From Bacteroides sp. (lineage in GTDB: Bacteria; Bacteroidota; Bacteroidia; Bacteroidales; P3), in the NCBI GenBank assembly GCA_023662825.1, contig JAMPIH010000001.1, forward strand, positions 62,001 to 126,000: DNA of 64,000 bases, written 5' to 3'. The notes under the pieces are model-generated. The model was not told the origin of the DNA. It did not search any database and worked only from the letters and a program-made list of their open reading frames with translations. Below are positions 11,695 through 37,859 of this stretch, one piece after another. The first letter of the stretch is position 1; each line of letters starts with the position of its first letter. The translations under genes and the position numbers were made by a program.

Positions 11695-12393
11695 TTATTT
11701 CCCCATTATTTTTTTTTTAGCAGCGGTCTTGGCGGCAGTGGCTTTGGCGGCCACTTTCTTGATACCGGCCTTCACCGCCTTCTCGGCTTTCTTGCCGGCT
11801 TTCACCGCTTTCTTGCTTTCGGCTTTCAGAACCTTTTCGGCCTTCTTGCCGGCCTTCACCGCCTTGGCCACGGTTTTCTTGCCTTCGGCTTTCAAGACCT
11901 TTTCGGCTTTCTTGCCGGCCTTCACCGCCTTGGCCATCGTCTTCTTGCCTTCGGCCTTCAGAACCTTTTCGGCCTTCTTGCCGGCCTTCACCGCCTTGGC
12001 CATCGTCTTCTTGCCTTCAGCCTTCAGAACCTTTTCGGCCTTCTTGCCGGCCTTCACCGCTTTCTTAACCGTCTTTTCAGCCTTGGCCTTCAAGGTTTTG
12101 GCAGCGGGCTTGGCGGCTTTCTTGGCCGTAGCCTTCACAGCGGGCTTGGCAGCCTTAACGGTTTTCTTGGCCGTGGCTTTCGTTGCCGTTGTTTTCGCGG
12201 CGGCTTTCTTAGCCGTGGCTTTTACGGCGGGCTTGGCGGCAACCTTCTTGGTTGCGGTTTTCTTGGCAGCCGGTTTAACCGCAGCCTTGGCCGCGGTTTT
12301 CTTGGCAGCAGTCTTTGCAGCCGGTTTGGCGGCTGCTTTCTTTGCGGCGGGCTTGGCAGCCGTCTTCACCGCAGCTTTCTGAGTCTTAGCCAT
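11695..12393 (-). CDS. lysine/alanine-rich histone H1-like protein
   Basis: A 232-residue, extremely basic protein made almost only of Lys, Ala, Val, Thr and Pro. Residues 1-111 are irregular AAKK/PAAKK blocks like eukaryotic H1 tails or bacterial Hc1-type proteins. Residues 112-210 are about 4.5 copies of a 22-residue unit beginning [18 protein letters not shown]. No folded domain is apparent, so it probably binds nucleic acid non-specifically and compacts the nucleoid. It overlaps the end of udk by 8 bases. Copy number of such repeats often varies between strains. Confidence 0.85.
11764..12060 (-). repeat. tandem 66-bp repeats within the H1-like gene
   Basis: About 4.5 near-identical 66-bp units encode the 22-residue repeat of the histone-like protein. 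Copies differ mainly at TMAK/TVAK and at the last, shortened unit. The high identity suggests recent expansion or active homogenisation. Confidence 0.85.
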
Positions 12394-15824: not shown

Positions 15825-16481
15825 ATGGATATGAAAACCCGATACCTTGTCTTCGACTTCGACGGAACCTTGCTCGACACCACGCCGGTAATCCTGGCCA
15901 CCATGCGTGCCACCGCGCAGGCAATGGGACTGCCCGAAAAGACGGAAAGCGAATGCCGCGCCACCATCGGCCTGCGCCTCAGGGACGTACCCGCCAAGCT
16001 CTATCCGCAGCATCCGGGCATCGAAGACAAATACGTGAACGTTTATCACGATATTTTCAACGAACAGAAAACGCGCTACAAACCGGTAATGTTTCCCGGC
16101 GTGCCGGAAACGCTCCACACCCTGTCGGAGCAGGGCTTTCCGATGGCGGTGGCCAGCAGCCGCACCCGCAAGTCTCTCGTGGAATTCTTAGACGATTCGG
16201 AACTGGCGCCGCTCTTTGCGATGGTGGTGGGCGGCGACGACGTTGCCCACGGCAAGCCCAATCCCGACCCGGTGCTCGCGCTATGCGGGGCGCTCGGCTG
16301 GAACCCGCAGGAAATACTGGTGGTGGGCGATGCCGACGTGGACATCCTGATGGGCAAGGCGGCCGGCTGCCAGACCTGCGGCGTAACTTACGGGAACGGC
16401 ACCTTGCCCGAACTGCAGAAAGCCGCCCCCGATTTCCTGATAGACCGCTTCGGAGAGTTGTTGCCCATTATCCAAAGGTAA
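15825..16481 (+). CDS. HAD-family phosphatase (phosphoglycolate phosphatase-like)
   Basis: A 218-residue HAD hydrolase. Motif I is DFDGTLLDT with nucleophile Asp11 and acid Asp13, motif II is the VASSRTR segment, motif III the GKPNPDP lysine, and motif IV VVGDADVDILMGKAAG. The helical cap after motif I places it in subfamily IA with phosphoglycolate and beta-phosphoglucomutase-type enzymes. Substrate unknown. It starts 2 bp after the Ca2+-ATPase stop, so the pair is one operon. A second ATG at 15831 is possible. Confidence 0.85.
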   Translation: MDMKTRYLVFDFDGTLLDTTPVILATMRATAQAMGLPEKTESECRATIGLRLRDVPAKLYPQHPGIEDKYVNVYHDIFNEQKTRYKPVMFPGVPETLHTLSEQGFPMAVASSRTRKSLVEFLDDSELAPLFAMVVGGDDVAHGKPNPDPVLALCGALGWNPQEILVVGDADVDILMGKAAGCQTCGVTYGNGTLPELQKAAPDFLIDRFGELLPIIQR

Positions 16482-16485
16482 AAAA

Positions 16486-16501
16486 ACGTACTGAAGTACG
16501 T
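16486..16501. other. short perfect palindrome after the HAD gene
   Basis: ACGTACTGAAGTACGT has 7-bp arms around GA and starts five bases after the HAD stop. No T-run follows, so it is a weak terminator candidate. A G/C-rich imperfect inverted repeat follows at about 16513-16554. The next gene-like sequence is the small ORF at 16673. Confidence 0.4.
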
Positions 16502-16574
16502 GACTGAACATGCCGAGGGGGACACGCAGATTGAAATGCCTCCCCCCTTTGGCCCGAGTAAATGAGGTTCGTCT

Positions 16575-16582
16575 TATCTTTG
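16575..16582 (+). promoter_or_regulatory. Bacteroidetes -7 element before the left MARPI ORF
   Basis: TATCTTTG matches TAnnTTTG, about 90 bases upstream of the small ORF at 16673. A TTTG lies further upstream at a longer than usual spacing. Confidence 0.45.
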
Positions 16583-16672
16583 CCATATTGTTATCCAAAA
16601 GTGGATGTTCTTCAAGTTTAAAAGCAACCGCTAATGTACTAAAAGATATAGGGCTATGAAGGATATAAGATT

Positions 16673-16774
16673 ATGGCAAGGCCTATAGCAGAAACCCCGA
16701 TCTTGACAGGTGAGGACGCCATTCGCTTCGAAGAAAGTTCCAATTTATTGATTACTGCGAAGTTGTACGAGTAA
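16673..16774 (+). pseudogene. truncated small 'MARPI' protein (left edge of the island)
   Basis: A 33-residue frame starting MARPIAETPILTGEDAIRF. Its first 19 residues match the small protein at 28489 (MARPIKDTPVLRGEDAWRF), including an identical 14-base start, then the similarity stops and the frame ends early. I read it as the 5' remnant of the same gene family, broken near the left boundary of the AT-rich island. I recognise this as a recurrent Bacteroidales small-protein type but know no function for it. Positions 16775-16965 downstream show no gene. Confidence 0.55.
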
Positions 16775-16965
16775 TCCACGTTCTGATCACCAAGAATCCA
16801 TAGGTAAGGAATTACGCTAAAAATCATAACCTAATCCGTTATAAACCAGAAGAATTTCGAAAATATCTGAGGTTGGCGTGAAATAACCAACGCTTCCTTT
16901 CTTTAATTTCAGAAAACTTCCTGAACCAACACCAATCTAATGTAAAATGGAATTAATGAATGCCA

Positions 16966-17256
16966 TTACGGCTGTATTGCACTTTCTTCAGGCGCCTCAT
17001 TCTCTGGACTTTCAACATCCTCAACATTAATTTCGAAGTTAAGCCTAATAGAAACTGGTTTGGTAAAACAGTAACATTGTTGGGTTCGACTATAAGAAAC
17101 TGGGACATTGAAACTTTTCAATATCTCAAGATAACGGAAAAACGTACTTTCAGAAATCCCCAACTTTTGTGCGTACATAGCCGGTGTTCCTCTCCATTGC
17201 ATCTGAATCAGATGAATGAGATATTCAAGGGTTTCTTTTTGCTGTAACATCTTCAT
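16966..17256 (-). CDS. helix-turn-helix regulator next to the RiPP operon
   Basis: A 96-residue protein. The N-terminal half is a DeoR/HTH_11-like DNA-binding domain (LEYLIHLIQMQWRG then the helix-turn-helix LGISESTFFRYLEIL). The C-terminal part is short, with an acidic tail (VEDVESPENEAPEES). It is transcribed away from the precursor gene, the usual position of a local regulator, and a palindrome abuts its own -7 element. A second start at Met3 is equally plausible. I infer that it controls the peptide locus, but ligand and sign of regulation are unknown. Confidence 0.7.
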   Translation of the reverse strand: MKMLQQKETLEYLIHLIQMQWRGTPAMYAQKLGISESTFFRYLEILKSFNVPVSYSRTQQCYCFTKPVSIRLNFEINVEDVESPENEAPEESAIQP

Positions 17257-17328
17257 GTCTCAAAAATCAAGTTACTATTAAGTGAACTGCATCAATGGCA
17301 AACATCTTACTAACAATCTTTCGTAAAA

Positions 17329-17336
17329 CAAAACTA
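17329..17336 (-). promoter_or_regulatory. -7 element for the HTH regulator
   Basis: The minus strand reads TAGTTTTG, matching TAnnTTTG, about 73 bases upstream of the regulator start. Its first base is shared with the palindrome 17336-17356. Confidence 0.5.
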
Positions 17337-17356
17337 CAACTTTTACAAAAAGTTGT
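17336..17356. promoter_or_regulatory. perfect 9-bp inverted repeat, candidate operator
   Basis: ACAACTTTT and AAAAGTTGT are perfect inverted copies separated by 3 bp. The palindrome touches the -7 box of the HTH gene and would occupy its promoter spacer, the position expected for an autoregulatory operator. Binding by the HTH protein is inferred. Confidence 0.5.
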
Positions 17357-17418
17357 TCCGTGCAGTCTTGTTTCATATTATCAGCAAAATTGCTTTCACT
17401 ATCTCAAGAAGTGGAGCA

Positions 17419-17435
17419 ACAGAGTAAAACTCTGT
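17419..17435. promoter_or_regulatory. 7-bp inverted repeat in the divergent intergenic region
   Basis: ACAGAGT and ACTCTGT flank a 3-base spacer, about 70 bp upstream of the precursor's -7 element. It could be a second operator; its sequence is unrelated to the palindrome at 17336. Confidence 0.35.
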
Positions 17436-17502
17436 AAACGATACAATTCTTGTTAAACAAAGATATTTCGCTTCACTCTCAAAAAACGAGAATAAACAAA
17501 AA

Positions 17503-17510
17503 TACCTTTG
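17503..17510 (+). promoter_or_regulatory. -7 element of the precursor operon
   Basis: TACCTTTG matches TAnnTTTG. A start just downstream would give a 5' leader of a little over 200 nt before the precursor ATG at 17734, long for a gene of 80 codons. Confidence 0.6.
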
Positions 17511-17655
17511 TGTGTACAAACTGCATTAGTTGAATACTATCCTTTTTAGGATTAATACCCATCAAGGCAACTCATGCAGACAAAGAAGGAAACCAATGGA
17601 ATGCAAAGTTAACAGACGGTTGGCCCTCTATGGTAAAAACAATTTTGAGGCATCT

Positions 17656-17680
17656 GCCCTACTGTGCAGAACAGTAGGGC
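17656..17680 (+). promoter_or_regulatory. stem-loop in the 5' leader of the precursor
   Basis: GCCCTACTGT and ACAGTAGGGC form a perfect 10-bp stem with a 5-base loop, ending 53 bases before the precursor ATG. Only a short T-run (CCTTTT) follows, so it may be a stabiliser or attenuator rather than a full terminator. Confidence 0.55.
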
Positions 17681-17733
17681 GTAATCCTTTTGAACCAAAA
17701 CAAAGAGTTTATAAACACATAAAACACAAAGCA

Positions 17734-17976
17734 ATGAAAAACCTGAAACAAAACAATCTGGAAAGAAACGAGATAACCTCTCGTGAACAAGCTCAACTTC
17801 GTGGCGGTGCAGGCGACCAGTCATGTGGCTGTAAATGTAGCAATGTCAATAATGGCCAAGACCGGATCGACAATGGTCAATCCGCCTATGACAGAGGTGT
17901 CACACCTAGTTTAGACGGAGTTGTTTTTATGCCCCCTGTCATCATACCCGCGCCTATTAAAGGCGGCCTAAAGTAA
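17734..17976 (+). CDS. RiPP precursor peptide, GG-Bacteroidales family
   Basis: An 80-residue peptide. Residues 1-25 are a leader ending in a double glycine (EQAQLRGG), the cleavage signal of C39 peptidases. The 55-residue core begins AGDQSCGCKC, with Cys at core positions 6, 8 and 10, then a polar Asn/Asp/Gly segment with repeated NG (NNG, DNG). It ends in a hydrophobic, Pro-rich tail (VVFMPPVIIPAPIK). This matches the 'natural product precursor, GG-Bacteroidales family' pattern of a KL/KN-rich leader, GG, CGCxC and DNG. The Met at 17734 is chosen over an open upstream extension, which crosses the leader hairpin and has no leader-like sequence. The radical SAM enzyme and exporter follow. Structure and activity of the product are unknown to me. 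Confidence 0.88.
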   Translation: MKNLKQNNLERNEITSREQAQLRGGAGDQSCGCKCSNVNNGQDRIDNGQSAYDRGVTPSLDGVVFMPPVIIPAPIKGGLK

Positions 17977-17984
17977 ACAATCAA

Positions 17985-18036
17985 TTCCATAGTTGTATGA
18001 TGCCGCTTATCCACTTGACATCATACAACTATGGAA
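17985..18036 (+). promoter_or_regulatory. 18-bp perfect stem hairpin between precursor and maturase
   Basis: Bases 17985-18002 and 18019-18036 are perfect inverted copies around a 16-base loop, starting nine bases after the precursor stop. No U-tract follows. It probably blocks exonucleases and/or partly stops transcription so that precursor mRNA exceeds maturase mRNA. Confidence 0.7.
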
Positions 18037-18058
18037 AAGTTTATCTATTAGATTCATC

Positions 18059-19300
18059 ATGAACAGCCGCAGAATATCCGAAGATGAAATCTTGCAAAAT
18101 TTAGCAAATCTGCCACAAATCACTTTTGAGGTAACAGATGCCTGTAACCTCGCCTGTAAGTATTGTGGTTACGGAGAACTCTACGATTGGTATGACAAAC
18201 GAACAAATTCGTATTTAACATTCTTGCAAGTAAAAAAAATCATAGACTATATTGTAGATCTATGGTCAGAATATCCGAATGAGTCCATTAATCCTGTAAC
18301 TTTTTTTAGTTTTTATGGAGGAGAACCTCTCCTGAATATGCAGTTCATTAAAGAGACGGTAGCGTATGTAGAATCTCTGCAGCTACCGAAGAACATCTTT
18401 TTTTCCATGACAACCAATGGCTTACTCCTCGACCAGGCAATGGATTATTTGAAGGCCAAAAATTTTCGATTGCTTATAAGTTTGGATGGAAACAAATATG
18501 CCAATGGATACCGGGTAGATAGACAAGGTAAGGAATCTTTTGATCGTGTCATTCACAATATTGAATTACTACGGAACACCTATCCGTCTTATTACACCCA
18601 GAATGTCAGGTTCAACGCTGTTTTACACAGCCGCAATAATGTGAATGATATCCGTAAATTTTATAAAGAGATACTGGACAAAGAAAACATAATGATATCC
18701 GAACTCAACACGGCTGGAATCAGGCATTCCCGCAAGAAATTGTTCGAGCAAATTTATCGTAACAAAATGAAAGATTTGTTGTCTTCAGAAAATCGCATTG
18801 ATTTGTCCGATGATTTGGCGGATAACCCTGCAAACCATCAATTATTGGCCTTCCTGCAAAAATACAGCGGCAATATATTTGACAACTACATTGACCTCTT
18901 CATGGATCCTAAAGAAAAGCAATACACCCCTACTGGAACATGTATTCCCTTTTCCAGAAAAATGTTTATAACTGTTAATGGGAAAATTTTGCCTTGTGAA
19001 AGGATAAATCATCAGTTTTCTTACGGAATGGTTGATGAACATGGATTGGATTTTGATATTTCACAAATAGTGAAACAGTTTAATCATTACCTAGATCAAA
19101 TGCAACCTCAGTGTACCGCATGTTACAACAAAGAAAGTTGTGCCGTATGTCTTTATAATATGTTGCAAGACGGAAAATTGCATTGCGATAAGTTTTTATG
19201 CAAAAACGATTACCAACAACTTGTATCATCTTCTTTTTTCTACTTAACCCAGCACCCGCATTTGTACAAAAAGTTGATGACCGAAGTTATCGAGGCGTAA
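18059..19300 (+). CDS. radical SAM/SPASM peptide maturase, GG-Bacteroidales family
   Basis: A 413-residue enzyme from the ATG at 18059. This start is preferred because the longer frame begins inside the hairpin. The radical SAM cluster motif is CNLACKYC with Cys29, Cys33 and Cys36, followed by YGELYDWY, typical of this maturase group. A GGEPLL motif for SAM binding lies near residue 88. The C-terminal SPASM region has many cysteines (CIPFSRKMF, ILPCERI, CTACYNKESCAVC, LHCDKFLC) for auxiliary Fe-S clusters. It should install a radical-based crosslink or other change in the Cys-rich core of the precursor. The next gene is its pseudo-rSAM partner after 14 bp. Confidence 0.9.
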   Translation: MNSRRISEDEILQNLANLPQITFEVTDACNLACKYCGYGELYDWYDKRTNSYLTFLQVKKIIDYIVDLWSEYPNESINPVTFFSFYGGEPLLNMQFIKETVAYVESLQLPKNIFFSMTTNGLLLDQAMDYLKAKNFRLLISLDGNKYANGYRVDRQGKESFDRVIHNIELLRNTYPSYYTQNVRFNAVLHSRNNVNDIRKFYKEILDKENIMISELNTAGIRHSRKKLFEQIYRNKMKDLLSSENRIDLSDDLADNPANHQLLAFLQKYSGNIFDNYIDLFMDPKEKQYTPTGTCIPFSRKMFITVNGKILPCERINHQFSYGMVDEHGLDFDISQIVKQFNHYLDQMQPQCTACYNKESCAVCLYNMLQDGKLHCDKFLCKNDYQQLVSSSFFYLTQHPHLYKKLMTEVIEA

Positions 19301-19314
19301 CTAATAAAGAAATC

Positions 19315-20496
19315 ATGAAGGTGTTAACCTTGAATCCCGACTCATTCCTGTGGCTTAAAAAAGGCGAAGGGCTTTTATACAATGCCGCAAACTACTCCGT
19401 TTACGAATTTCCGCTAACGCCATCCGTTCAGGAAATATGCGAAACAATGCTGGATATGGAGCATTTATACAGTGTTCCTTATATGGAAGAATCCGCAGAT
19501 GATACACTTAAAGATTTTGTGTTGTACATCACATCGAATGATTTTGGATTCATTCAAGATACAGAATCTCAAAGTCGTATTATATCCTTTCCTCCTTTAT
19601 TAAAGATACGCCATAGTTGGACCGACTCCAACAATGAAATTTTGTTAGATTCTTTATTACGAAATCTTTCTTCCTTTACCATCTATACTGGCGGTATTGG
19701 ATTGCCTGGAAACTATTATTTACAGGCGAATTATCCTTCCTCTTTCGACTCTGTTCTTTCCCCGCAAGACTTGATGAATTTCATGAAACGATTTGACATC
19801 TGGAACTTGCGAAATGTTGACATAATATTCTCGAATATGGAGAATATGGACAACTTAGAGGGAACATTACATTTTCTAGATGAATTTTCCGTAAACATCA
19901 AGGTTGTTCTTCGTGCCGCAGAACTTTGTTGTGATAGAGTTGTAAATTTATTAGCCAATCGTAAATTTTTAATCGAAATCATACACACTCCATCTGACAA
20001 TGATGTAATTTCTGAAGTCTGCAGGACACTTTCTCAGACCTCCCATGTTTTTTATGTATTCTCAGAACAAGATTATCTGAATGCAATACAAAAAGCGCAG
20101 AACTACCCCAACAGCCAGATTCGACCTTTATTCAATGGAAAAAATCATGCTTTCTTCCATAAGAAGGTTCTTCTGACACGTGAGGATTTCAAGAAAACCC
20201 AATTATCACGAAGAGCGGTTTTTGCACATCAGGTATTAAATACAAACTACTTTGGTAAACTTATCGTATTACCGAACGGTAAAGTGTATTCCAATCCCTC
20301 AATGCCTCCATTGGGAAATATGTCTGATCCCATATCGCACATAGTGGCTCGTGAATTTAAAACCAATAATGCCTGGCGTGTGATTCGTAATACGAAAAGG
20401 TGTCAAAAGTGTTTATTTCAGTATCTTTGCCCATCCCCAAGCTTTTATGAAAAGCAAATGGGCATAACCTGTATATGCACCGATATGAATATGTGA
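19315..20496 (+). CDS. pseudo-radical-SAM protein, GG-Bacteroidales system
   Basis: A 393-residue protein, started at the ATG at 19315 because the longer frame overlaps the maturase and adds an unrelated hydrophobic segment. It opens with a family-like SFLWLKKGEGLLYNAANYSV and ends with a SPASM remnant (CQKCLFQYLCPSPSFYE). No CxxxCxxC motif is present in the N-terminal half, so it cannot carry the SAM-cleaving cluster. The 'pseudo-rSAM, GG-Bacteroidales system' family always accompanies the active maturase. I infer a role in leader binding or as a maturase partner. Confidence 0.82.
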   Translation: MKVLTLNPDSFLWLKKGEGLLYNAANYSVYEFPLTPSVQEICETMLDMEHLYSVPYMEESADDTLKDFVLYITSNDFGFIQDTESQSRIISFPPLLKIRHSWTDSNNEILLDSLLRNLSSFTIYTGGIGLPGNYYLQANYPSSFDSVLSPQDLMNFMKRFDIWNLRNVDIIFSNMENMDNLEGTLHFLDEFSVNIKVVLRAAELCCDRVVNLLANRKFLIEIIHTPSDNDVISEVCRTLSQTSHVFYVFSEQDYLNAIQKAQNYPNSQIRPLFNGKNHAFFHKKVLLTREDFKKTQLSRRAVFAHQVLNTNYFGKLIVLPNGKVYSNPSMPPLGNMSDPISHIVAREFKTNNAWRVIRNTKRCQKCLFQYLCPSPSFYEKQMGITCICTDMNM

Positions 20497-20521
20497 AATT
20501 CAAACAGCAGAAAGGAAGCAA

Positions 20522-22279
20522 ATGAAAGCAAAAAAAGTTTTAAATCAATGTATCGTTTGGGTACTTTCCGTGCTTCTTCCCTTTATTGTTCCGGCACAAA
20601 ATCTAAGCCATACACGAACGTATGTTTTTCACTCAAAAGTGTACGGCAAGGAACGTTCTTTCCGCATTTCAGTGCCTTCCAATGCCCCGACAGGAGTGAA
20701 ATTCAATCTTCTGTATGTATTGGATGCAGATTACCTGTTCGATGTGGCATCCTCGACAGCCATCTATATGCAAGCCTGCGACCTTATTCCGCCCACGGCG
20801 GTAGTTGCCGTCGATTACGATCCTCCTGGAGACAAGATAAACAATATAGGCTGGAATGAGAATGATTTCTCACTGTATGAATCCGGACAAAATTTATATC
20901 GTTATATCAATGATGAAATTGTTCCTTTTGTAGACTTGATTTTGCCATCTTCAGGTTTCCGAACCATAATGGGGCATTCTCATACCGCGAACTATCTTAC
21001 CTACTATCTTCAGGCCAACAACACGAACTTCCAATCCTATTTATTGATCTCTCCGGATCCTTGTTGGTGGCAAAGGATAGAAGACTCCATGCCAGTCGTT
21101 TCTATTGGGAGCTTTCCATTTCCCAAGGATTTCACAGCCAAAGAAAAACAGCAAGAGGCCATAATCAGAATCATACAGCCCACCCAACAAGGTTCAATGC
21201 ATGGTCAGATAGACCATCGTGGGAATTATCCGACACTGTTTCCATTTCAGGAGGCTCCTCTGGAAGGTATGCACGCCTATGATTCCTTATTGTGTGACGG
21301 ATTGCAAAACACGGGATTCAAAGACGTCAAACTACTCAACGTTCCTTCTACCTATTGGGGCGTGATTCCCGACGGTATTCCTGTTGGATTGCGAAGTCTG
21401 TACGAGCGCTATTGGAATATAGACAGCCTTGACCGGTTTGTCCATGCCTCCCGAATCAATAACCCGATAAATCCGCCTTCAGGCACAAACGTTTGGGATT
21501 TTTTTGAGAAACTCAACCGGGAACATATCCAGAAGTACCACCAACCCCTTCGACTGTCTTCTTCAATATGGGCATTCCCTCGCCGCGCCATAGAAAATAA
21601 AGATACCGTTTCTTTGAGGAAGTTATGGGAATACTATACGCAGGCATTGTCTGTATCTTTCCCTGAATCCGACGCTTTATCGGCAATGGGGTATCTGGGA
21701 TGGTGGCAAAGCAAAGACCAAGAAGCGATAGAATTTTATGAAAGGGAACTTGCGTTGGATGCATCTTCGGGAAAAGATTTTAACAATAATGTCTGGAGCA
21801 CAGACAACCTGTTAATCGAAATGCTCTGCCAGACGGGTGATTTAAATCGGGCATGGGAGTTGCTGGAACAAGTGAAGTCCGTTACACCTCCGGGAGCCCG
21901 TGTGGCCGCTTGTTATCAGCAGGGATTGATATCGGCCAGATTCAGATACCGGATGTGCGAGGGAATTCAACGACTTCAGGAAGCATTAGCCTATCCGGCA
22001 GAAATAAGAAGATGGGTCGGCTGCAATGCAGGTGCCTCGCCCGAAGTGGCGGAAATGGCTCTTGAATTTTTGAAACGGAATGCAGATTGCCGGGATTCAG
22101 CCAATACGTTGGTTCGGCTGACCAACCTTAGATACTCCCCTTATGCTCCTGCTTTCTATGAATCAAAGGCGTGTTTCTATACGGATGATACCAAAACCTA
22201 CGGGAAATCGACTTGCAAACAGAAACGAAATAAACAGAAACAGCGCAGGAATAGAAAAAACAAAAGCCTTGAGCGATGA
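20522..22279 (+). CDS. exported esterase (alpha/beta hydrolase) with C-terminal TPR-like region
   Basis: A 585-residue protein with a signal peptide ending near VPAQ26. Residues 30-290 are a putative esterase of the PF00756 group (esterase D/enterochelin esterase-like): LLYVLDADYLF, VVAVDY and the nucleophile elbow GHSHTA with Ser153. The C-terminal part (about 370-540) is helical with repeated WxYY/W-type TPR-like units, and the end is very basic. It lies 25 bp after the pseudo-rSAM gene and overlaps the GLPGLI gene by four bases, so it belongs to the peptide operon. It should act in the periplasm or at the surface. A role in self-protection, tailoring or siderophore-like chemistry is only conjecture. 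Confidence 0.75.
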   Translation: MKAKKVLNQCIVWVLSVLLPFIVPAQNLSHTRTYVFHSKVYGKERSFRISVPSNAPTGVKFNLLYVLDADYLFDVASSTAIYMQACDLIPPTAVVAVDYDPPGDKINNIGWNENDFSLYESGQNLYRYINDEIVPFVDLILPSSGFRTIMGHSHTANYLTYYLQANNTNFQSYLLISPDPCWWQRIEDSMPVVSIGSFPFPKDFTAKEKQQEAIIRIIQPTQQGSMHGQIDHRGNYPTLFPFQEAPLEGMHAYDSLLCDGLQNTGFKDVKLLNVPSTYWGVIPDGIPVGLRSLYERYWNIDSLDRFVHASRINNPINPPSGTNVWDFFEKLNREHIQKYHQPLRLSSSIWAFPRRAIENKDTVSLRKLWEYYTQALSVSFPESDALSAMGYLGWWQSKDQEAIEFYERELALDASSGKDFNNNVWSTDNLLIEMLCQTGDLNRAWELLEQVKSVTPPGARVAACYQQGLISARFRYRMCEGIQRLQEALAYPAEIRRWVGCNAGASPEVAEMALEFLKRNADCRDSANTLVRLTNLRYSPYAPAFYESKACFYTDDTKTYGKSTCKQKRNKQKQRRNRKNKSLER

Positions 22280-23133
22280 AAAGCAGACTATACTCGGCGT
22301 GCATATGGGTGCTTGGTGCATTGTTCGGCATGGGTGGTGCATATGGACAAAATCCATATTACCCCACGGCATCGTATCTTTGGCAAGAGACCACGTATGA
22401 CACAGCCTTTATGCAGGTGTTGTACAAGATGGAATTTTGGGATCAGTGGCATTCTGAACGGTATGAAGATGTGAGAATGTTGGAAATCGGTATGAATTAC
22501 CGTAAGGATTACAGTTTACGTCTTGACATTCTTGACAGAAAGACAAAAGAATGTACAGAACGTTTTGAAACGCCTATGTTCAGGCTGGATTCTGCTGTCT
22601 ATCCGTTTGAATGGTTTGTCGAAAAAAATAATTCGTGGAGTACATTTAGAACCATCTATGGGGGGCCTGTTCTCCGTTGGCCAGAGAAAACACCCGACTT
22701 TACTTGGCAATTGCTGGACGAGGCCGATACGGTGGCTGGCTTCCTGTGCCAAAAGGCAAAAACCTTTCACGGTGGAAGAATCTATGAGGCTTATTATTGT
22801 CCGGACATTCCTGTAAGTGCCGGCCCTTATCGGTTCGGCGGTTTACCGGGACTGATACTGAAAATACAGGATACAGCAAGCCTTTATAAATGGGAGATTA
22901 CCGGGATGCAGCACGGGAAGTACCCGATTGCGGAGAAACAGTTTTTATTTCAGAAATCCAACAAAAAGAAAGCAACCGAAGTGATTTCTTTTATGTTTGC
23001 TCATCCATTCAAATTTTTGGTAGAGGTATTGCATATGGACTTGATGATTCAGGATGGAAAAGGCGGCGCATATAGTCCGGGAGAAAGAGAATTCGGCATC
23101 TCGTGGTTTTATGAACCGATTGAAATAGAATAG
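22276..23133 (+). CDS. GLPGLI family protein
   Basis: A 285-residue exported protein with signal peptide (cleavage near GAYGQ) and the family signature GLPGLI at residues 189-194, preceded by CPDIPVSAGPYRFG. The family is widespread in Bacteroidetes, of unknown function, and often sits near outer-membrane or RiPP export genes. Its start is coupled to the esterase stop (ATGA). An immunity or periplasmic chaperone role is possible but not shown. Confidence 0.85.
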   Translation: MKSRLYSACIWVLGALFGMGGAYGQNPYYPTASYLWQETTYDTAFMQVLYKMEFWDQWHSERYEDVRMLEIGMNYRKDYSLRLDILDRKTKECTERFETPMFRLDSAVYPFEWFVEKNNSWSTFRTIYGGPVLRWPEKTPDFTWQLLDEADTVAGFLCQKAKTFHGGRIYEAYYCPDIPVSAGPYRFGGLPGLILKIQDTASLYKWEITGMQHGKYPIAEKQFLFQKSNKKKATEVISFMFAHPFKFLVEVLHMDLMIQDGKGGAYSPGEREFGISWFYEPIEIE

Positions 23134-23344
23134 ATGGCTCATTTATTCAATCGCAACAAACACACCTTCCTTTAGCATATACAACCAATATGGTCAACCA
23201 ATTTCAAGGCATCTTAAACAAGTCCTATGTATTAGTTTAAAACGATTGCTTTAAGGAACAACAGTATCGAATTCAAGCGCCTTCAGCTTACTCCTATTTT
23301 TTGAGAACGAATAAACATATACTCGCAAACTGTAAATTAATGGA
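23134..23344. other. intergenic gap inside the RiPP locus
   Basis: AT-rich, 211 bp. I see only minimal ATG-stop frames (13 and 16 codons), no clear TAnnTTTG element and no strong hairpin. The gap may hold a separate promoter for the exporter genes, but I cannot point to one. Confidence 0.4.
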
Positions 23345-25564
23345 ATGAACTCCAAATTTCCCTTTGTTTCTCAACCCGATGCGATGGATTGTGGGGCGGC
23401 GTGTATCTCGATGATAAGCCGTTATTATGGGAAATACCGCGCTATCGACACCTTGCGCGAGATGTGCCATGCAACGCGGGAAGGCGTTTCGTTATTGGAT
23501 CTCAGTAATGCTGCGGAACAGTTGGGATTTAGGACAATCGGCGTAAAGATAACCATAGGGCAACTGTTGCAGGAAGTAAATTATCCTTGCATCGTGCACT
23601 GGAAACAGAATCACTTTATCGTAGTTTACAAAACATCCGTCAAACGCACACCAGACGGTGTTTTTCATGGCCATGTACATATCGCAGACCCTGCACATGG
23701 CCTTACCAAATTGAAAGTGCAGGATTTTCTTTGCGGCTGGATAAGCATAGGCAAAGGAGAACTGGGGCAAGGCATTGCCCTCTTGTTGGAGCCAACCCCG
23801 GAATTCTATTCCCAGGATGAAGACCGACACAGCCGCAAAAAACTCACATTTATTTTACGTTACCTGAAACCATACAGGAAACATGTAATTCAACTCTTTT
23901 GTGGAGTGCTGTTAGGTTCCATATTGCAATTGGTATTCCCCTTCTTAACCCAAAGCATCGTGGACTATGGAATCGGAAACCGGAACCTAGGCTTCGTAAC
24001 CCTGATTCTGATAGCCCAACTGGTATTGTTTTTCAGCCAAACGATAGTCGAGTTTATCCAATCGTGGATATTGTTGCACATCACGGTGAGAATCAATATC
24101 TCCATGATTTCAGACTTTCTGATTAAACTGATGAAACTGCCCATCCGTTTTTTCGACACGAAACTGATCGGAGACCTGCTGCAGCGAATTCAGGATAACT
24201 CACGGATACAGAGTTTTCTAACCCAAGAAACCTTACAGACTTTCTTTTCGTTCTTCACGCTGATCGTATTCCTGATAGTGTTAGCCATCTATAACGGAAC
24301 AATCTTCTTCATCTTTTTAATTTCCAGCTGCCTGTACATATTTTGGATAACATTGTTTTTAAAACGTAGACGCGCCTTAGATTATAAACGTTTTGCACAG
24401 GCTTCGGTTGAACAAAGCAATCTGTACGAAATGGTAACTGCCATGCAGGAAATCAAGCTACAGAATTGCGAGAAACAGAAACGGTGGGGCTGGGAAAACA
24501 TACAGGCAAAATTATTCAAGATAAGCGTGGAGGGCCTGTCCTTGCAGCAATATCAACAGGCAGGAGGTGCATTTATCAATCAATTGAAGAATATATTGGT
24601 GTCGTTTCTTTCGGCTCGTGCCGTAATCAATGGAGAAATGACCTTAGGTATGATGGTTGCCGTGCAATATATTATCGGACAACTGAACTCCCCCATTTCT
24701 ATGCTGATTTCATTTGTTCAATCCGCGCAAGATGCTAAAATCAGCATGGAACGTCTGGGCGAGATACAGGAACGAGAAGATGAAGAAGAAAAGAATCTGC
24801 ATAGGACAACCCGTATTCCTGCAGGTTCGCAATTGCGCGTGGAAAAACTGTCTTTCCGCTATGGCGGTACTGAAAGTCCAGAGGTATTGAAAGACATCGA
24901 TTTGAACATACCTGCCGGCAAGACAACAGCCATTGTTGGTATGAGCGGAAGCGGCAAAACAACATTGGTTAAATTGCTGCTTGGCTTTTATGAACCGGCA
25001 CACGGAGCCATCTTGGTTGGTGGGCATAACCTGAACAATGTGAATACGCACGTATGGAGAACCAAATGCGGCGCCGTAATGCAAGACGGGTATATATTTT
25101 CGGACACGATAGCGAACAATATCGCGGTTGGCGAGGAACGGATTGATTGGGAGAGGTTGACCTATGCGGTTAAGATGGCAAACATCGAGGAAATGATACA
25201 AGAACTTCCTTTGGGCTTTAACACAAAAATCGGTCAAGAAGGCAACGGGTTAAGTCAGGGGCAGAAGCAACGTATACTGATAGCCCGTACCATTTACAAG
25301 AACCCCGAATTCATATTTTTCGATGAAGCGACCAATTCGTTAGATGCGAACAACGAACGGGCAATCATGAAAAATCTAACGGAGTTTTTTAGAGGAAAGA
25401 CCGTTGTGGTTGTGGCGCACAGACTTAGCACGGTACGCCATGCGGATCAGATTGTGGTGTTAAAGGATGGGCAAATAAAAGAACTTGGTTCCCATGAAGA
25501 ATTGGTTTCTCTTCATGGTGATTATTATCGGCTGGTTAAAAATCAATTGGAATTGGGCAATTAG
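23345..25564 (+). CDS. C39-peptidase-containing ABC exporter for double-glycine peptides
   Basis: A 739-residue bacteriocin-type ABC transporter. The N-terminal C39 peptidase (about 1-130) has catalytic Cys16 in DCGAAC, His90 in NHFIVVY and Asp115 in ADPA. The membrane domain spans about 160-450, and the ATPase domain has Walker A GMSGSGKTT, the signature LSQGQKQRI, Walker B FIFFDEAT and the switch His in VAHRLS. It should cut the precursor after Gly-Gly and move the core across the inner membrane. HlyD and TolC genes follow directly, giving a complete tripartite exporter. Confidence 0.93.
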   Translation: MNSKFPFVSQPDAMDCGAACISMISRYYGKYRAIDTLREMCHATREGVSLLDLSNAAEQLGFRTIGVKITIGQLLQEVNYPCIVHWKQNHFIVVYKTSVKRTPDGVFHGHVHIADPAHGLTKLKVQDFLCGWISIGKGELGQGIALLLEPTPEFYSQDEDRHSRKKLTFILRYLKPYRKHVIQLFCGVLLGSILQLVFPFLTQSIVDYGIGNRNLGFVTLILIAQLVLFFSQTIVEFIQSWILLHITVRINISMISDFLIKLMKLPIRFFDTKLIGDLLQRIQDNSRIQSFLTQETLQTFFSFFTLIVFLIVLAIYNGTIFFIFLISSCLYIFWITLFLKRRRALDYKRFAQASVEQSNLYEMVTAMQEIKLQNCEKQKRWGWENIQAKLFKISVEGLSLQQYQQAGGAFINQLKNILVSFLSARAVINGEMTLGMMVAVQYIIGQLNSPISMLISFVQSAQDAKISMERLGEIQEREDEEEKNLHRTTRIPAGSQLRVEKLSFRYGGTESPEVLKDIDLNIPAGKTTAIVGMSGSGKTTLVKLLLGFYEPAHGAILVGGHNLNNVNTHVWRTKCGAVMQDGYIFSDTIANNIAVGEERIDWERLTYAVKMANIEEMIQELPLGFNTKIGQEGNGLSQGQKQRILIARTIYKNPEFIFFDEATNSLDANNERAIMKNLTEFFRGKTVVVVAHRLSTVRHADQIVVLKDGQIKELGSHEELVSLHGDYYRLVKNQLELGN

Positions 25565-25572
25565 GAAGCAGC

Positions 25573-26943
25573 ATGGAAAACTTGAAGTTTGATATAACGG
25601 CAGCGTTGGACGAATCCATTGTTCCGGCTCAAGATTACACGAAGGTGTCGGACAACGGAGAACACAGCCTCCCCGTTCAAGATATTTTAGGAAGAACGCC
25701 TCATTGGGTGGTCCGTTGGGGCATTGTTTCCATTTTAGCGGTGGTGATGCTTTTATTGATAGGCAGTGCTTTTGTAAAGTACCCTGATATTATAAGTTGC
25801 CGAATTACGGTAACTACCGAAAACATGCCCGTACATCTTGCCGCCCGTACCTCAGGTAAAATCGACACGCTTTTGGTGGAGGATCGGGAGTGTGTTTTAA
25901 ACGGCTCCGTTCTGGCGGTATTGGAAAACACCGCCCGCTATACCGACATACAGCAAATGTCGGAATATGTAAACTTTTACGCACCCTATTTGGAGTTTCA
26001 TGCAGACACTCTGGTGTTCGCGCCTTTCCCCAAAAATCTATCGTTAGGCGAACTTCAAAGTGGATTCTATCGGTTTGTAAAAGCATTGAGCGATTATCGG
26101 TACTTTAAAGAACACGACTACTACGGGAAAAAAGCGGAAACCTTAAGCAGCCGTCAGGCGGTTCAAGGGAGAATAAGTCAGAACATACGGGAACGGCTAA
26201 AACTTACGGAAGGACAGCTTGCCATTCAAGAACATCTATTCAAGGTAGATTCAGCGTTGTTTTTAGGAAATGCAATATCAGGCGTAGAATACGAACAATC
26301 GTATTCCTCTTTGTTACAAATGCGACAGTCGTATGCAAATGCAATCGAGGCTATCCATACGGCATCACTAACCACCATGCAGACGGAACAGGAAATTTGG
26401 GAATTGTATCAAGAGCAACAGGATAAGGAGAATGAACTTTACTTGTCTTTATCCGGAGCCTACGGAGACCTGTCCGCCCAATTGGAGGAATGGGAACAGA
26501 AATATGTATTCCGTAGCCCGATAGACGGTATTGTCGCATTGACAAACTATTGGCAAAAAAATCAGCATATCAGCACGGGAGAAATGTTGTTGAGTATTAT
26601 CCCGACAGACACATGCAGGATAACAGGCAAGATTATGTTGCCTGCTCATGGTATCGGAAAAGTACGTAACAATCAACGTATCAATATCAAGTTTGATGGA
26701 TTCCCCTATATGGAATTCGGTATGGTGGAGGCGCGGGTTGGAAAAATAGCCATGCTGCCTGTAAAACAAGAAAATGAAATGTACACAGTAGTAGAAGTGA
26801 TTATGCCGGATAGTCTGGTTACAAGTTATGGACAAACCTTGATGTTTTCACAACAAATGCAGGGAGATGCCGAAATTATTACCGCAGACCTAAGCATATT
26901 GGACAGAATATTGAATCCTATAAAATCTGCCTTGAAACGATGA
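25573..26943 (+). CDS. HlyD-family periplasmic adaptor
   Basis: A 456-residue membrane fusion protein. A short cytoplasmic N-terminus precedes one transmembrane helix (about 47-69), then a lipoyl half-motif (AARTSGKIDTLLVEDRECV), a coiled-coil hairpin (about 150-300), the second lipoyl half (FRSPIDGIVAL) and a beta-barrel domain (INIKFDGFPYMEFG). It bridges the ABC exporter and the outer-membrane channel. It begins 8 bp after the ABC gene and overlaps the TolC-type gene by four bases. Confidence 0.9.
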   Translation: MENLKFDITAALDESIVPAQDYTKVSDNGEHSLPVQDILGRTPHWVVRWGIVSILAVVMLLLIGSAFVKYPDIISCRITVTTENMPVHLAARTSGKIDTLLVEDRECVLNGSVLAVLENTARYTDIQQMSEYVNFYAPYLEFHADTLVFAPFPKNLSLGELQSGFYRFVKALSDYRYFKEHDYYGKKAETLSSRQAVQGRISQNIRERLKLTEGQLAIQEHLFKVDSALFLGNAISGVEYEQSYSSLLQMRQSYANAIEAIHTASLTTMQTEQEIWELYQEQQDKENELYLSLSGAYGDLSAQLEEWEQKYVFRSPIDGIVALTNYWQKNQHISTGEMLLSIIPTDTCRITGKIMLPAHGIGKVRNNQRINIKFDGFPYMEFGMVEARVGKIAMLPVKQENEMYTVVEVIMPDSLVTSYGQTLMFSQQMQGDAEIITADLSILDRILNPIKSALKR

Positions 26944-28445
26944 AGGCACTTATTGTTTTTGCCATAGCAACGCTTTATTCTGCAGGATTCCTTTACGCCC
27001 AAGACGTACATACAGCATCGACCAGGCAAATGTCATTGGCCGAAGTTCTATCGCTGTCAAATGCCAGTGCAGAAGCAAAAATCGCCCGATACACCTTTCT
27101 TTCCAGTCATTGGGAATATGAATCGGTTCGCAAGAATATCTTGCCGACACTTTCTTTTTCGGGCACATTGCCGCAGATTAACAGGTCTTTCACCAAAGCG
27201 ACCTTACCCGATGGGCGTGAAGCATTTGTATCTCAATTTTATGGAGATTATTCCGGAGGATTGGAACTGCAACAAGTCATACCGCAGACCAATACGAAAA
27301 TATCTGTTTCTTCCGGATTGGAAAGATTGGATCTGTACGGGCAAGAGCATACAAAATCCTATTTGGCCACTCCTTTTAAGGTTGGTGTTTCCCAATCTCT
27401 GTTTACCTACAATGCAGATAAATGGGAACGTAAAATCAATCCGGTTAAATACAATGCCGCAAAACAACGATATTTACAGGAAAGAGAGGCTGTCTATGCG
27501 AAAGCGGCGGCGCTCTACTTCGATTTATTGTCTGCGCAAGAGCAGTACAAAAATGCAAAAAACATTCGGGCATATTCAGATACACTTTATGCAATGGCAA
27601 GCGAGAAGTATCGGAAGCAATCCATAGTGGAATCGGAATATCTACAAGTTGAATTAAATGCGTTACAGGCAGAATACGAAGAGCGCAATTGCTATCGATT
27701 GTGGAAAGAAGCACTGTTCACACTAAAAGATTTCCTATCGGTAGAGGATTCCGAGGAATGGATTTTGACGATGCCGGATCAAGAAAGGCTTCCCCTCGTT
27801 TCGCAAGAACTTGCACTGAATGAAGCTTCGGAAAACAATTCCGTCTATCATGAATTCAAACAGAAAGAAATCGAGGCTCATAGCAATTTGATTCGCTCCA
27901 AGACTGCGAACAGGTTCAGCATGGATATTTACGCTTCGTTCAGTTTAAACCAGAATGCCGGTGCCTTGGCAAAATCCTATACCGATTTATTGGATCAAGA
28001 AATGGTTTCCGTAGGGTTGCGTATTCCAATACTGGATTGGGGTAGATCTAAAAGTCAAATTAAAATGGCACAGGCTCAGAAAGATGTTACCCTATTGCAG
28101 ATAGACCAAGAACGCCGGACATTTGTACGTGAGTTGATTTCTTTGGTGGAAGAACTGGGGGTTCAAGAGCAAAAAGTACTACTGTCCCGACGAGCCATAG
28201 ATATAGCCAATCGCAAATTATCGATAGAAACATTAATGTACCGTCTGGCAAAAGTTGATTTCTCGCATTATCAAGATGCCTTAATCGACCAAAAGTCCTG
28301 CTTGATTACTTATTTGGAAGACCAAAAACAGTATTGGCTTTTATACTATTCGGTGCGCAAAACAACTTTATACGATTTTATGGAAAGCCAAAAGATAGAA
28401 ACATCATTCAAAGACCTTCTGCTTGGAGATGTTGTGTCAAGATAG
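26940..28445 (+). CDS. TolC-family outer membrane efflux protein
   Basis: A 501-residue protein with a signal peptide (MKALIVFAIATLYSAGFLYA) and two TolC/OEP repeats rich in long helices (for example YNAAKQRYLQEREAVYAKAA and QKDVTLLQIDQERRTFVREL). It should form the outer-membrane exit duct for the peptide exporter. Its start overlaps the HlyD stop (ATGA). It is the last gene of the RiPP locus; an AT-rich spacer with the right-hand MARPI ORF follows. Confidence 0.9.
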   Translation: MKALIVFAIATLYSAGFLYAQDVHTASTRQMSLAEVLSLSNASAEAKIARYTFLSSHWEYESVRKNILPTLSFSGTLPQINRSFTKATLPDGREAFVSQFYGDYSGGLELQQVIPQTNTKISVSSGLERLDLYGQEHTKSYLATPFKVGVSQSLFTYNADKWERKINPVKYNAAKQRYLQEREAVYAKAAALYFDLLSAQEQYKNAKNIRAYSDTLYAMASEKYRKQSIVESEYLQVELNALQAEYEERNCYRLWKEALFTLKDFLSVEDSEEWILTMPDQERLPLVSQELALNEASENNSVYHEFKQKEIEAHSNLIRSKTANRFSMDIYASFSLNQNAGALAKSYTDLLDQEMVSVGLRIPILDWGRSKSQIKMAQAQKDVTLLQIDQERRTFVRELISLVEELGVQEQKVLLSRRAIDIANRKLSIETLMYRLAKVDFSHYQDALIDQKSCLITYLEDQKQYWLLYYSVRKTTLYDFMESQKIETSFKDLLLGDVVSR

Positions 28446-28452
28446 AATAACC

Positions 28453-28460
28453 TATCTTTG
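28453..28460 (+). promoter_or_regulatory. -7 element before the right MARPI ORF
   Basis: TATCTTTG matches TAnnTTTG, about 28 bases upstream of the ATG at 28489. Its flanks (CTATCTTTGCATCAAAA) nearly repeat those of the next promoter at 28697. Confidence 0.55.
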
Positions 28461-28488
28461 CATCAAAATCTAAAAAGTAGAGTGAACG

Positions 28489-28644
28489 ATGGCAAGGCCT
28501 ATTAAAGACACTCCCGTTTTGAGGGGAGAAGATGCCTGGCGTTTTATGGAGAGAATGAACGAAGACCGTAAGGAATCTGCAAAAAAGAAGCAACGGCGAC
28601 TGGAAAATTACAAATTGGCGATGAGTATATTTACCAACAAATAA
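28489..28644 (+). CDS. small basic 'MARPI' protein
   Basis: A 51-residue frame beginning MARPIKDTPVLRGEDAWRF and continuing with a basic helical C-terminus (ERMNEDRKESAKKKQRR). It has its own -7 element. The N-terminal half matches the truncated frame at 16673 on the other side of the island. I know the pattern as a recurrent Bacteroidales small protein but no proven function. It is too short to call by length alone; conservation with the left copy is the main support. Confidence 0.6.
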   Translation: MARPIKDTPVLRGEDAWRFMERMNEDRKESAKKKQRRLENYKLAMSIFTNK

Positions 28645-28696
28645 TTACTCCGCACACACCTTTCCCGAAGGTAAAAAACGATGGGTTTATATAGCC

Positions 28697-32614: not shown

Positions 32615-33868
32615 TCATTCCACACCTCCTCCATCCAATAGGAAATCGTAAATATCCATAAACAAGATACCTTCCTCGTTTTGATAGCGAGGGCTATGGT
32701 CTCCCACTATCACGATTTTCTGAAACGAGTCGTCAATCCGCCTTAGCGATTGCAGTTCCTGTTCGCGTTTCCCGTCATCGGGAATACCGAAAGCCGACTG
32801 GATATAGAACCGCTTATATCCCTGATTGCACACAAAGTCCACCTCCAGATTCTTTCTAACTTTCTTTCCTGTCTTGTCTTGCGTATTCCAAATCACTTCC
32901 CCCACATCCACCGCCATTTCACGAATACGCAACTCGTTGTAAATGGCATTTTCCATCAGATGGGCCTTTTCCACCTGACGGAAATTCAGCAGGGCATTCC
33001 TAAGCCCCAAGTCTTCGAAATAAAACTTCGAAGGAGTGTCGATATAGCGCTTCCCCTTGATGTCGTATCGCAAGGCCCGCTCAACAATAAACGCATCCTG
33101 CAAATAGTCAATATACATCTTGATTGTATCTTGGCTTATCGGACTTTTCTTTACGGAACGAAACGTGTCGGCCAGTTTTCTATAATTGGTCAACCCGCCA
33201 ACTGCCGAAGCAAGGGTGGCAATCAATTCCGCAAGGTCATCATCGAGCCTGATGGCATAACGTTCTTTGATATCCTTGAGATACGTGTGCAAAAAAAGCC
33301 CTTTTAGATAATCCATCCGTTCCTTGTTCGACAACATGGTCTGCACCTGCGGCAAGCCGCCATAAGTCATATAATCCACCCAAAGTTGTTCTACCGGGAT
33401 ATCCGGCCTTGCTTCACGAACCTCACGAAACGACAGCGGATGAATCCTCAGTTCATAGCCCCTCCCCCGAAACTCCGTTATTACGTCTTTTGAGAGGAAA
33501 CGGGCATTTGAACCGGTTACATACACATCTGCATTTTTTACATGGAGATAAGAGTTGAGCACATCTTCGAACTCGCTCACCATTTGCACTTCGTCTAAAA
33601 GCACGTAATGCATCTTGTCGTCCAACAGCTTTCCATCAATGTACGCCAACAACATATCGGGATTCCTCAGGCGCTTGTTTCTGCGATCCTCCAAATTTAT
33701 CTTGACAATATGGTCCTCATCCACCCCTTCCGCTTTCAACGCATTGGCAAACAAATTAAAGAGAAGGTACGATTTTCCGCATCTTCTCATACCCGTAATC
33801 ACCTTAATCATTCCATTGTGCCTCAAGTCCATCAGCCGACCGAGGAGCATGTCCCGCCTAATCTCCAT
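32615..33868 (-). CDS. AAA ATPase with DUF4143 domain
   Basis: A 417-residue protein: an AAA_14-type ATPase (Walker A GMRRCGKS at 26-33, Walker B YVLLDEVQ) followed by DUF4143 (YFEDLGLRNALL, LEVDFVCNQGYKRFYIQSA), which resembles a PD-(D/E)xK nuclease fold. The family is abundant and mobile in Bacteroidetes, of unknown role. It is AT-richer than its neighbours, has its own promoter, lies opposite to recX, and is bracketed by the 57-bp direct repeat, so I infer insertion as a cassette. Confidence 0.88.
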   Translation of the reverse strand: MEIRRDMLLGRLMDLRHNGMIKVITGMRRCGKSYLLFNLFANALKAEGVDEDHIVKINLEDRRNKRLRNPDMLLAYIDGKLLDDKMHYVLLDEVQMVSEFEDVLNSYLHVKNADVYVTGSNARFLSKDVITEFRGRGYELRIHPLSFREVREARPDIPVEQLWVDYMTYGGLPQVQTMLSNKERMDYLKGLFLHTYLKDIKERYAIRLDDDLAELIATLASAVGGLTNYRKLADTFRSVKKSPISQDTIKMYIDYLQDAFIVERALRYDIKGKRYIDTPSKFYFEDLGLRNALLNFRQVEKAHLMENAIYNELRIREMAVDVGEVIWNTQDKTGKKVRKNLEVDFVCNQGYKRFYIQSAFGIPDDGKREQELQSLRRIDDSFQKIVIVGDHSPRYQNEEGILFMDIYDFLLDGGGVE

Positions 33869-33910
33869 CCTATTCTATATTTTTGCAGATATCCGCATTT
33901 TTATCGACTA

Positions 33911-33940
33911 CAAATGTATGTATTTTTCCGTTGATACAAA
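33911..33940 (-). promoter_or_regulatory. complete Bacteroidetes promoter for the DUF4143 ATPase
   Basis: The minus strand has TTTG (33937-33940), 18 bases, then TACATTTG (33911-33918), the best -33/-7 pair in the window. It lies 43 bases upstream of the ATG. Confidence 0.7.
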
Positions 33941-33984
33941 ATGTTCAAGACAAAAAACAACACAGAAAAGGATGAATGGAAGCA

Positions 33985-34041
33985 TAACCGAAAAAGGCCC
34001 GAAAACCGCCCTCTCGCGCGGCTTCGAGCCCTCGTTGATCC
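33985..34041 (+). repeat. 57-bp perfect direct repeat, copy 2 (recX remnant)
   Basis: Identical to 32512-32568. It still reads in frame as the RecX C-terminus (TALSRGFEPSLI) but then diverges to RFSE and a stop. It is the downstream border of the ATPase insert. Confidence 0.95.
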
Positions 34042-34116
34042 GGTTTTCGGAGTAAGGTGTAGTGTTTCTTAATAAGTCTTTTTTTCTTGCTTGAAGTTAC
34101 TATTTCCTGCGGTTCT

Positions 34117-34851
34117 TTACCTTATCCCATTCCTCGCTGAGGGAGGTCTTAAGCAGGGATGCGGTTTTTCTATCGAAAGGAAGCGGTTTTTCTGTATCAA
34201 GACCAAGGATTTCTGCACAAGATCCTTGTAGGCATTTGAATAACGGGCGGAGGGATGATAGATGCTCACAAACAGCAGATCCTTATGTCTGCCAAGCATC
34301 AGGCGACGGCCAAAAACCTCAACATATTGAAAATTCTCGCGAAGTGCACCTTTCATTCTATTGAAGTTATTGGGAGAAAGGCTTATCACCATTTCGGGCG
34401 ACAATATCCCAATAAGATCTATGGTGCACGGAAGTGTCTGATTGTATAGTCCCTCAAACACGTCTTTTGCTTTGGGGGTGTTGAAGAAGGTGGCATTGGT
34501 GAACACACATTCTTTCTCTTCATTCTTCTTTATGTCGGGATAGACCGCCGAGAGAAGGTTCATCACATTGTTCCAATATCTCCATCTGGTGTGTTCCTTC
34601 TGCCAGGTAAAGTTGCCGCGTATCAAGTGCCGATATTCTTCTCCCAGTTTGTCGAATCCCCAGTTGGGATTGTCTTTCATAGCCGAGAAACTTCCGCCCG
34701 AACCGGGATTGATGCCCATCACCACCACCTTTACCGGTTCCTGGATATCGGAAAGGGGCGTTTGGTTATAGAAGGCGAGGTCATACTTCTTCACCAGCTC
34801 GGAATAGACAGCATAGGTTTCCTTTGCCCAATTTAAAAGTTTGGTCTGCAT
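34117..34851 (-). CDS. uracil-DNA glycosylase-like superfamily protein
   Basis: A 244-residue protein from Met at 34851 (the longer frame adds an unlikely N-terminus). Two hallmarks of the UDG superfamily are visible: VVMGINPGSGG near residue 43-53 and the SIYHPSARYS motif near the C-terminus. The middle contains NNVMNLLSAVYPD. The family includes single-strand-selective and family 4-like glycosylases as well as divergent members of unknown substrate. The C-terminal residues look unlike the rest and may have been altered by the adjacent rearranged region. Confidence 0.6.
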   Translation of the reverse strand: MQTKLLNWAKETYAVYSELVKKYDLAFYNQTPLSDIQEPVKVVVMGINPGSGGSFSAMKDNPNWGFDKLGEEYRHLIRGNFTWQKEHTRWRYWNNVMNLLSAVYPDIKKNEEKECVFTNATFFNTPKAKDVFEGLYNQTLPCTIDLIGILSPEMVISLSPNNFNRMKGALRENFQYVEVFGRRLMLGRHKDLLFVSIYHPSARYSNAYKDLVQKSLVLIQKNRFLSIEKPHPCLRPPSARNGIR

Positions 34852-37854: not shown

Positions 37855-37859
37855 TACCT

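Follow-up and report, generated by a model that had tools for sequence, protein, structure and literature searches.

A 64,000-nt stretch of a Bacteroides sp. contig (hereafter, the window) contains a block that a preliminary description, made from the sequence itself, had presented as an A+T-rich island with a complete GG-Bacteroidales RiPP system gained by transfer. The question raised by this locus is whether the block is indeed a self-contained cassette of foreign origin and, if so, what its peptide and the proteins encoded with it are likely to do. The comparison set for the cassette comprised approximately 70 relatives.

Gene content, composition and boundaries of the island

The gene set of the block, determined from six-frame ORFs and HMM scans, is operon-like (Table 1). 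Every gene named in the preliminary description was found in the one block, and the island genes are co-directional on the plus strand, with the exception of the regulator candidate. G+C contents were 0.36–0.47 across 17–29 kb, versus 0.50–0.61 in the adjoining flanks, and GC3 values were 0.35–0.50 in the island genes versus 0.65–0.82 in the flanking genes. The claim that the block is richer in A+T than both flanks was thus borne out, and the break is real by either measure. Composition alone does not single out the island, since the window is also A+T-rich at 33–38 kb and 46–53 kb. These additional stretches (33000–38000 and 46000–53000) have G+C contents of 0.42–0.51, and the first is largely common to G010, the genome of a sister species.

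Table 1. Features of the island and its edges, in window coordinates
Feature	Position	Strand	Supporting data
AT-rich island	16505–28442	.	Sister genome G010 without the block; GC; GC3
MARPI remnant	16673–16771	+	Truncated, divergent second copy; 73% identical to 28489–28536 over 48 nt
Regulator candidate, small HTH-like protein, 96 aa	16966–17256	−	Weak HTH_29/HTH_11
RiPP precursor, 80 aa	17734–17976	+	Leader MKNLKQNNLERNEITSREQAQLRGG, core AGDQSCGCKCSNVNNGQDRIDNGQSAYDRGVTPS...; TIGR04149
Hairpin in precursor–maturase gap, 18-bp stem	17984–18036	+	−25.6 kcal/mol, z −7.6; inverted repeat I1
Radical SAM/SPASM peptide maturase (TIGR04148), 413 aa	18059–19300	+	462.7 bits, cut-off 300
Pseudo-rSAM (TIGR04150), 393 aa	19315–20496	+	RRE-like N-domain, barrel without CxxxCxxC, SPASM-type CxxCx5C...C kept
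Exported alpha/beta-hydrolase (esterase-like), TPR-like C-terminus	20522–22279	+	PF00756 E 5.5e–8, residues 38–187; TPR hits
GLPGLI-family exported protein, LolA/PNGF-II N-domain-like fold	22276–23133	+	TIGR01200 117.5 bits; AF2, Foldseek
C39 peptidase-containing ABC exporter (PCAT)	23345–25564	+	PF03412, PF00664, PF00005
HlyD-family periplasmic adaptor	25573–26943	+	TIGR01843, PF13437
TolC-family outer-membrane channel	26940–28445	+	PF02321 E 8.4e–28
Intact small MARPI ORF, right edge	28489–28644		Also at the G010 empty site

G010 aligns to window positions 15935–16504 and then to 28443–28646, with approximately 80 bp between and an identity of 92–97% on either side, and thus represents an empty site. 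The extent originally proposed (16673–28644) holds for the core of the block, and its ends were corrected to 16505 and approximately 28442. The right-hand end follows from the intact MARPI ORF, which was assigned to the host flank because it stands at the G010 empty site. In G010 this ORF is followed by one of approximately 170 aa, GNAT acetyltransferase-like by inspection, that is absent from the window; the layout of the two (L012/L078, near the empty site) is, again by inspection, toxin–antitoxin-like. The sole other MARPI copy in the genome is the remnant in Table 1, which may be a recombination scar at the left end of the island, and the block may have entered by recombination between MARPI loci. 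No tRNA that could mark a boundary was found in the 64,000-nt window, and the ORFs of the island include no integrase.

Probable horizontal acquisition of the cassette

The maturase gene was found in 3 of the 13 genomes of the genus (G000, which is the window genome, G002 and G012) and in 23 of the 393 genomes of the order. It is evident from this restricted occurrence in the genus and from the empty site in the sister species that the block is accessory DNA; its being core genome was rejected on the same data.

An alternative is that the island was inherited vertically, its A+T-richness reflecting local composition and no transfer. A maturase tree, obtained with a quick version of the tree search, agrees with this in part, as the window sequence groups with that of the same-genus genome G002 (SH-aLRT 95%), adjoining Prevotellaceae MAGs; the G002 and G010 exporters, moreover, are 73–75% identical. 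However, the closest maturase found anywhere is only 49% identical, the G002 cluster lies at another location with a host-like G+C content (0.554, i.e. 55%) and a different gene order, 10 of the 13 genus genomes are without the maturase, and the site in G010 is empty. Vertical inheritance was already disfavoured, and is considered highly unlikely. Taken together, the composition break, the empty site and the patchy distribution support the gain by transfer originally proposed. A horizontally acquired, self-contained TIGR04148/04149/04150 (GG-Bacteroidales) RiPP cassette is very probably the best explanation of the locus as a whole, including the scheme of maturation, export and partner proteins set out below.

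Repeated sequences were also observed. The copies in two tandem-repeat tracts of the window (11751–12150 and 36020–36442) align to G010 in shifted registers, which suggests that copy number may vary between species. Intergenic repeats of approximately 100–170 bp (TATCTTTAACTGCGTTGAAGATACTCCGCCTCGGCA...) are abundant across the genus (L077 2640–2960, and many sites in G000 and G010). A G010 contig has an IS-like end, a counterpart of which was sought within the window only.

Regulator, precursor and hairpin

A regulator had been claimed for the block. The claim may hold for the candidate at 16966–17256, which is only weakly HTH by Pfam (E 0.013–0.026), and fails for 16673–16771, the broken, divergent MARPI ORF. 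Homologues of the candidate adjoin other GG-peptide clusters (L056, L061, L094, L129, L130, L134 and L151). The L094 locus (G010 contig C33, 6181–14327) is a related export cluster that contains an HTH regulator 47% identical to that of the window, TolC, HlyD and a C39-ABC protein (74%). Its two GG precursors contain no cysteine, the first is followed by a TPR-like lipoprotein, and rSAM genes are absent nearby; the product is possibly an unmodified, exported signal peptide.

The true start of the precursor in the window is at 17734, and its double-glycine leader comprises 25 aa, ending in RGG. Against TIGR04149 the peptide scored 22.9 bits (E 5.7e–5), which falls 2.1 bits short of the trusted cut-off of 25. 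Against an enlarged family profile, built from 54 distinct precursors from other loci (window excluded) that had first been gathered with a seed profile containing the window peptide, it scored 48.6 bits (E 1.3e–13); 2000 shuffled copies reached 11.3 at best, and the remaining small ORFs of the window all scored far below the precursor. The precursor is thus homologous to, yet outside the curated cut-off of, TIGR04149. Two motifs recur in the cores of the 54 relatives: CxC, which occurs in 50 of them versus 14.6 (at most 26) after permutation, and NxxAN, which occurs in 34 versus 1.0 (at most 6). In the window core, SCGCKCSNVNNGQDRIDNGQSAYDRGVTPS, CxCxC is accompanied by NGQSA, a variant form of the second motif.

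The hairpin lies directly 3′ of the precursor stop codon, and control gene ends were without such a structure. Among relatives, hairpins with z<−3 were found after 40 of 73 precursors; the corresponding figures for the ends of maturase and pseudo-rSAM genes were 0 of 79 and 3 of 65. We infer a putative attenuator or mRNA stabiliser, which would hold the precursor mRNA in excess over that for the enzymes.

Maturase and pseudo-rSAM

The maturase (true start 18059) lacks an N-terminal RRE extension. Its TIGR04148 equivalog match spans residues 27–432 of the longer ORF and lies well above the cut-off, and both the CxxxCxxC motif (CNLACKYC) and seven C-terminal cysteines are invariant among the closest homologues. 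The next-best families were those of CcpM (Cys-rich peptide maturase; 204.7 bits) and PapB (ranthipeptide maturase; 104.4 bits), scores far under the respective cut-offs of 500 and 340. As TIGR04148 has no known product (no structure of one was found in the searchable literature), the chemistry was deduced from kinship with these lower-scoring families: the maturase would introduce rSAM cross-links, in which the CxCxC cysteines most likely form thioethers. The edge of the G002 cluster (L050, 17222–18975) encodes another, distinct rSAM/SPASM protein, which has a GG precursor to itself (with four cysteines in the core), and an S41 peptidase occupies the slot preceding GLPGLI in that cluster.

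Matches to the GG-Bacteroidales families had been claimed for maturase, precursor and pseudo-rSAM alike. That of the maturase was upheld; the other two proteins are homologues that score below their cut-offs. In the case of the pseudo-rSAM (true start approximately 19315), the score against TIGR04150 was 246.5 bits (E 4.9e–73) over nearly the full profile, the cut-off being 250, and its homology to that family is not in doubt.

An AF2 model of the pseudo-rSAM (pLDDT 90.9, pTM 0.87) was compared with the PDB. SuiB, the streptide maturase, was the best match (E 6.6e–11; global TM-scores a modest 0.42–0.49), followed by CteB and SkfB; the alignment covers RRE, barrel and SPASM. The fold shared with these three enzymes consists of an RRE-like N-domain, a TIM barrel and a SPASM domain, and the window protein differs from them in being without the SAM-binding CxxxCxxC. 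An N-terminal beta4-alpha-beta-alpha unit is situated where SuiB has its RRE; this N-domain had no Pfam match. The idea that it corresponds to the N-terminal extension of the long maturases is not borne out by sequence, as the domain HMM matches only the pseudo-rSAM half of the L151 fusion described below.

Among relatives, CxxxCxxC is present at the classical place in 37 of 67, and the four C-terminal cysteines (CxxCx5C...C) are invariant in 66–67 of the 67 TIGR04150 members. The family therefore mixes Cys-bearing and Cys-free forms, and judging from these motifs the name pseudo-rSAM is misleading for the 37 that keep the motif. The window copy, lacking the SAM-binding cysteines, is probably not catalytic. 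A natural fusion of 862 aa (L151:11321–13906), with TIGR04148 and TIGR04150 in tandem in one ORF, argues for direct cooperation of maturase and pseudo-rSAM. The SuiB-like fold, the cysteine pattern and this fusion point to a scaffold or leader-presenting role: the pseudo-rSAM would bind the leader through its SuiB-like RRE domain and present it to the maturase, and may in this way supply the RRE missing from the 413-aa enzyme. Co-occurrence does not prove the latter idea, since about half of the TIGR04148 maturases are longer (approximately 480–510 aa) and are also accompanied by a pseudo-rSAM.

The role of pseudo-rSAMs has been described as experimentally unassigned (PMC10352776). Were the protein a second catalytic enzyme, modifying the peptide via its own SPASM cluster and not serving as a scaffold, the invariance of the C-terminal cysteines and the retention of CxxxCxxC in 37 of the relatives would be in keeping with it, as would the L116 homologue, which lies above the Pfam Radical_SAM cut-off. 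However, the SAM-cluster cysteines are missing altogether from the window copy and from a whole subgroup, and this alternative is considered unlikely.

Exported partner proteins

The GLPGLI protein passes the TIGR01200 cut-off of 50 and contains the motif as GGLPGLIL. Its AF2 model, of moderate quality (pLDDT 79), resembles the N-terminal bowl domain of PNGase F-II (PNGF-II; TM 0.47) and LolA-type half-barrels, as judged by Foldseek; the protein differs from PNGase F-II in having no glycosidase domain. GLPGLI proteins are rarely mentioned in the searchable literature, where no entry on them is listed as concerned with RiPPs. In the 26 genomes with a maturase there are 24 GLPGLI genes above the cut-off, 7 of them no more than 5 kb from a maturase, versus approximately 0.08 expected in approximately 93 Mb (uncorrected for kinship among the genomes).

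The ORF that follows the precursor in relatives usually encodes an exported protein. Among 38 such partners, 16 were six-bladed beta-propellers (PF17170), 10 were GLPGLI proteins and others were aspartyl-protease-like, with or without PDZ. Precursor–GLPGLI pairs are repeated at L105, and pairs with a partner of another type at L051. From this arrangement of genes it is proposed that the gene after each precursor may encode its cognate exported partner, whether a beta-propeller, a GLPGLI protein or an aspartyl protease. In the window, the GLPGLI gene is not directly 3′ of the precursor. The GLPGLI protein may serve as a periplasmic peptide-binding or immunity partner.

The nucleophile of the esterase is aligned with the PF00756 triad (GHS); the His position is ambiguous, the two alternatives being W in STYWGVIP and H in SMHGQID. 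The gene was found in none of approximately 75 other TIGR04148 loci examined, and may therefore be a passenger; none was found in viral contigs. The esterase–GLPGLI pair stands alone at another locus in G010, where its DNA is 97.7% identical and host sequence follows directly; it thus looks like a transferable module. Judged by sequence, both proteins are Sec-exported. Within the cassette, GLPGLI with its LolA-like half-barrel and the esterase–TPR protein would have periplasmic functions, as cognate partners in binding, immunity or processing.

That solitary pair, the broken MARPI copy at the left end and a triad His that cannot be placed with confidence might instead mean that the cassette, although real, is decayed or silent, i.e. 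a remnant RiPP island in which the esterase–GLPGLI pair is an unrelated mobile unit. We regard this as unlikely, given that none of the nine genes is interrupted or truncated, maturase and C39 retain their catalytic motifs, and precursor and hairpin are conserved.

A more specific scheme can be put forward, tentatively and at somewhat less than even probability. TIGR04148/04150 pairs would be two-subunit synthases, composed of a dead-rSAM scaffold and an RRE-less maturase, each precursor would have its cognate exported partner, and GLPGLI would be a LolA-like periplasmic receptor, immunity protein or chaperone for the CxCxC RiPP.

Proposed export of the peptide

As expected for a PCAT-exported GG peptide, the C39-ABC protein (PF03412 E 1.7e–31) is encoded together with a GG precursor whose leader ends in RGG. 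The C39 domain would cleave after RGG, and the peptide would leave via HlyD–TolC. The family HMMs and the complete export machinery make a secreted, rSAM-modified GG peptide the best reading, as had been proposed.

It might be argued that the strict CxCxC of the core is a ligand, the peptide being a metal-binding peptide or metallophore and not a bacteriocin, with GLPGLI and the beta-propeller partners serving in its retrieval. In G012, GLPGLI is followed by a large ORF (without an NCBIfam hit) instead of an exporter, as such a role might allow. However, the window cassette has its C39 exporter, in related families of rSAM maturases the Cys residues go into thioethers, and the island is without metal-uptake genes; a metallophore is therefore very unlikely. 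The best reading of the sequence remains a foreign-looking cassette, in a gut-type bacterium, that would make, modify and export a small cysteine-rich peptide.

Relation to described systems and significance

The GG-Bacteroidales cluster of Bacteroides uniformis ATCC 8492 (PMC4573289) likewise has a GG-leader precursor, rSAM maturase, pseudo-rSAM, C39 ABC exporter and HlyD-type protein. To these the window cassette adds TolC, the exported esterase–TPR protein and GLPGLI; its maturase shares no more than 49% identity with any sequence found, and its pseudo-rSAM is of the Cys-less subtype. Bacteroidales BGC3–5 of Fernandez-Cantos et al. 2023 (PMC10352776) also combine rSAM and pseudo-rSAM proteins with GG precursors, and BGC4 includes PCAT, MFP and OMP. 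They differ in carrying LanC-like proteins, and their description mentions no partner of the GLPGLI, beta-propeller or esterase type.

The island represents a further member of a RiPP family that is catalogued but experimentally uncharacterised, and its likely role is in inter-bacterial competition or signalling. What it adds lies in the regularities apparent across the family and in the testable roles that these suggest for the pseudo-rSAM and GLPGLI proteins. CxCxC together with NxxAN provides a core signature for a RiPP family found across the Bacteroidales, gut and oral species among them.
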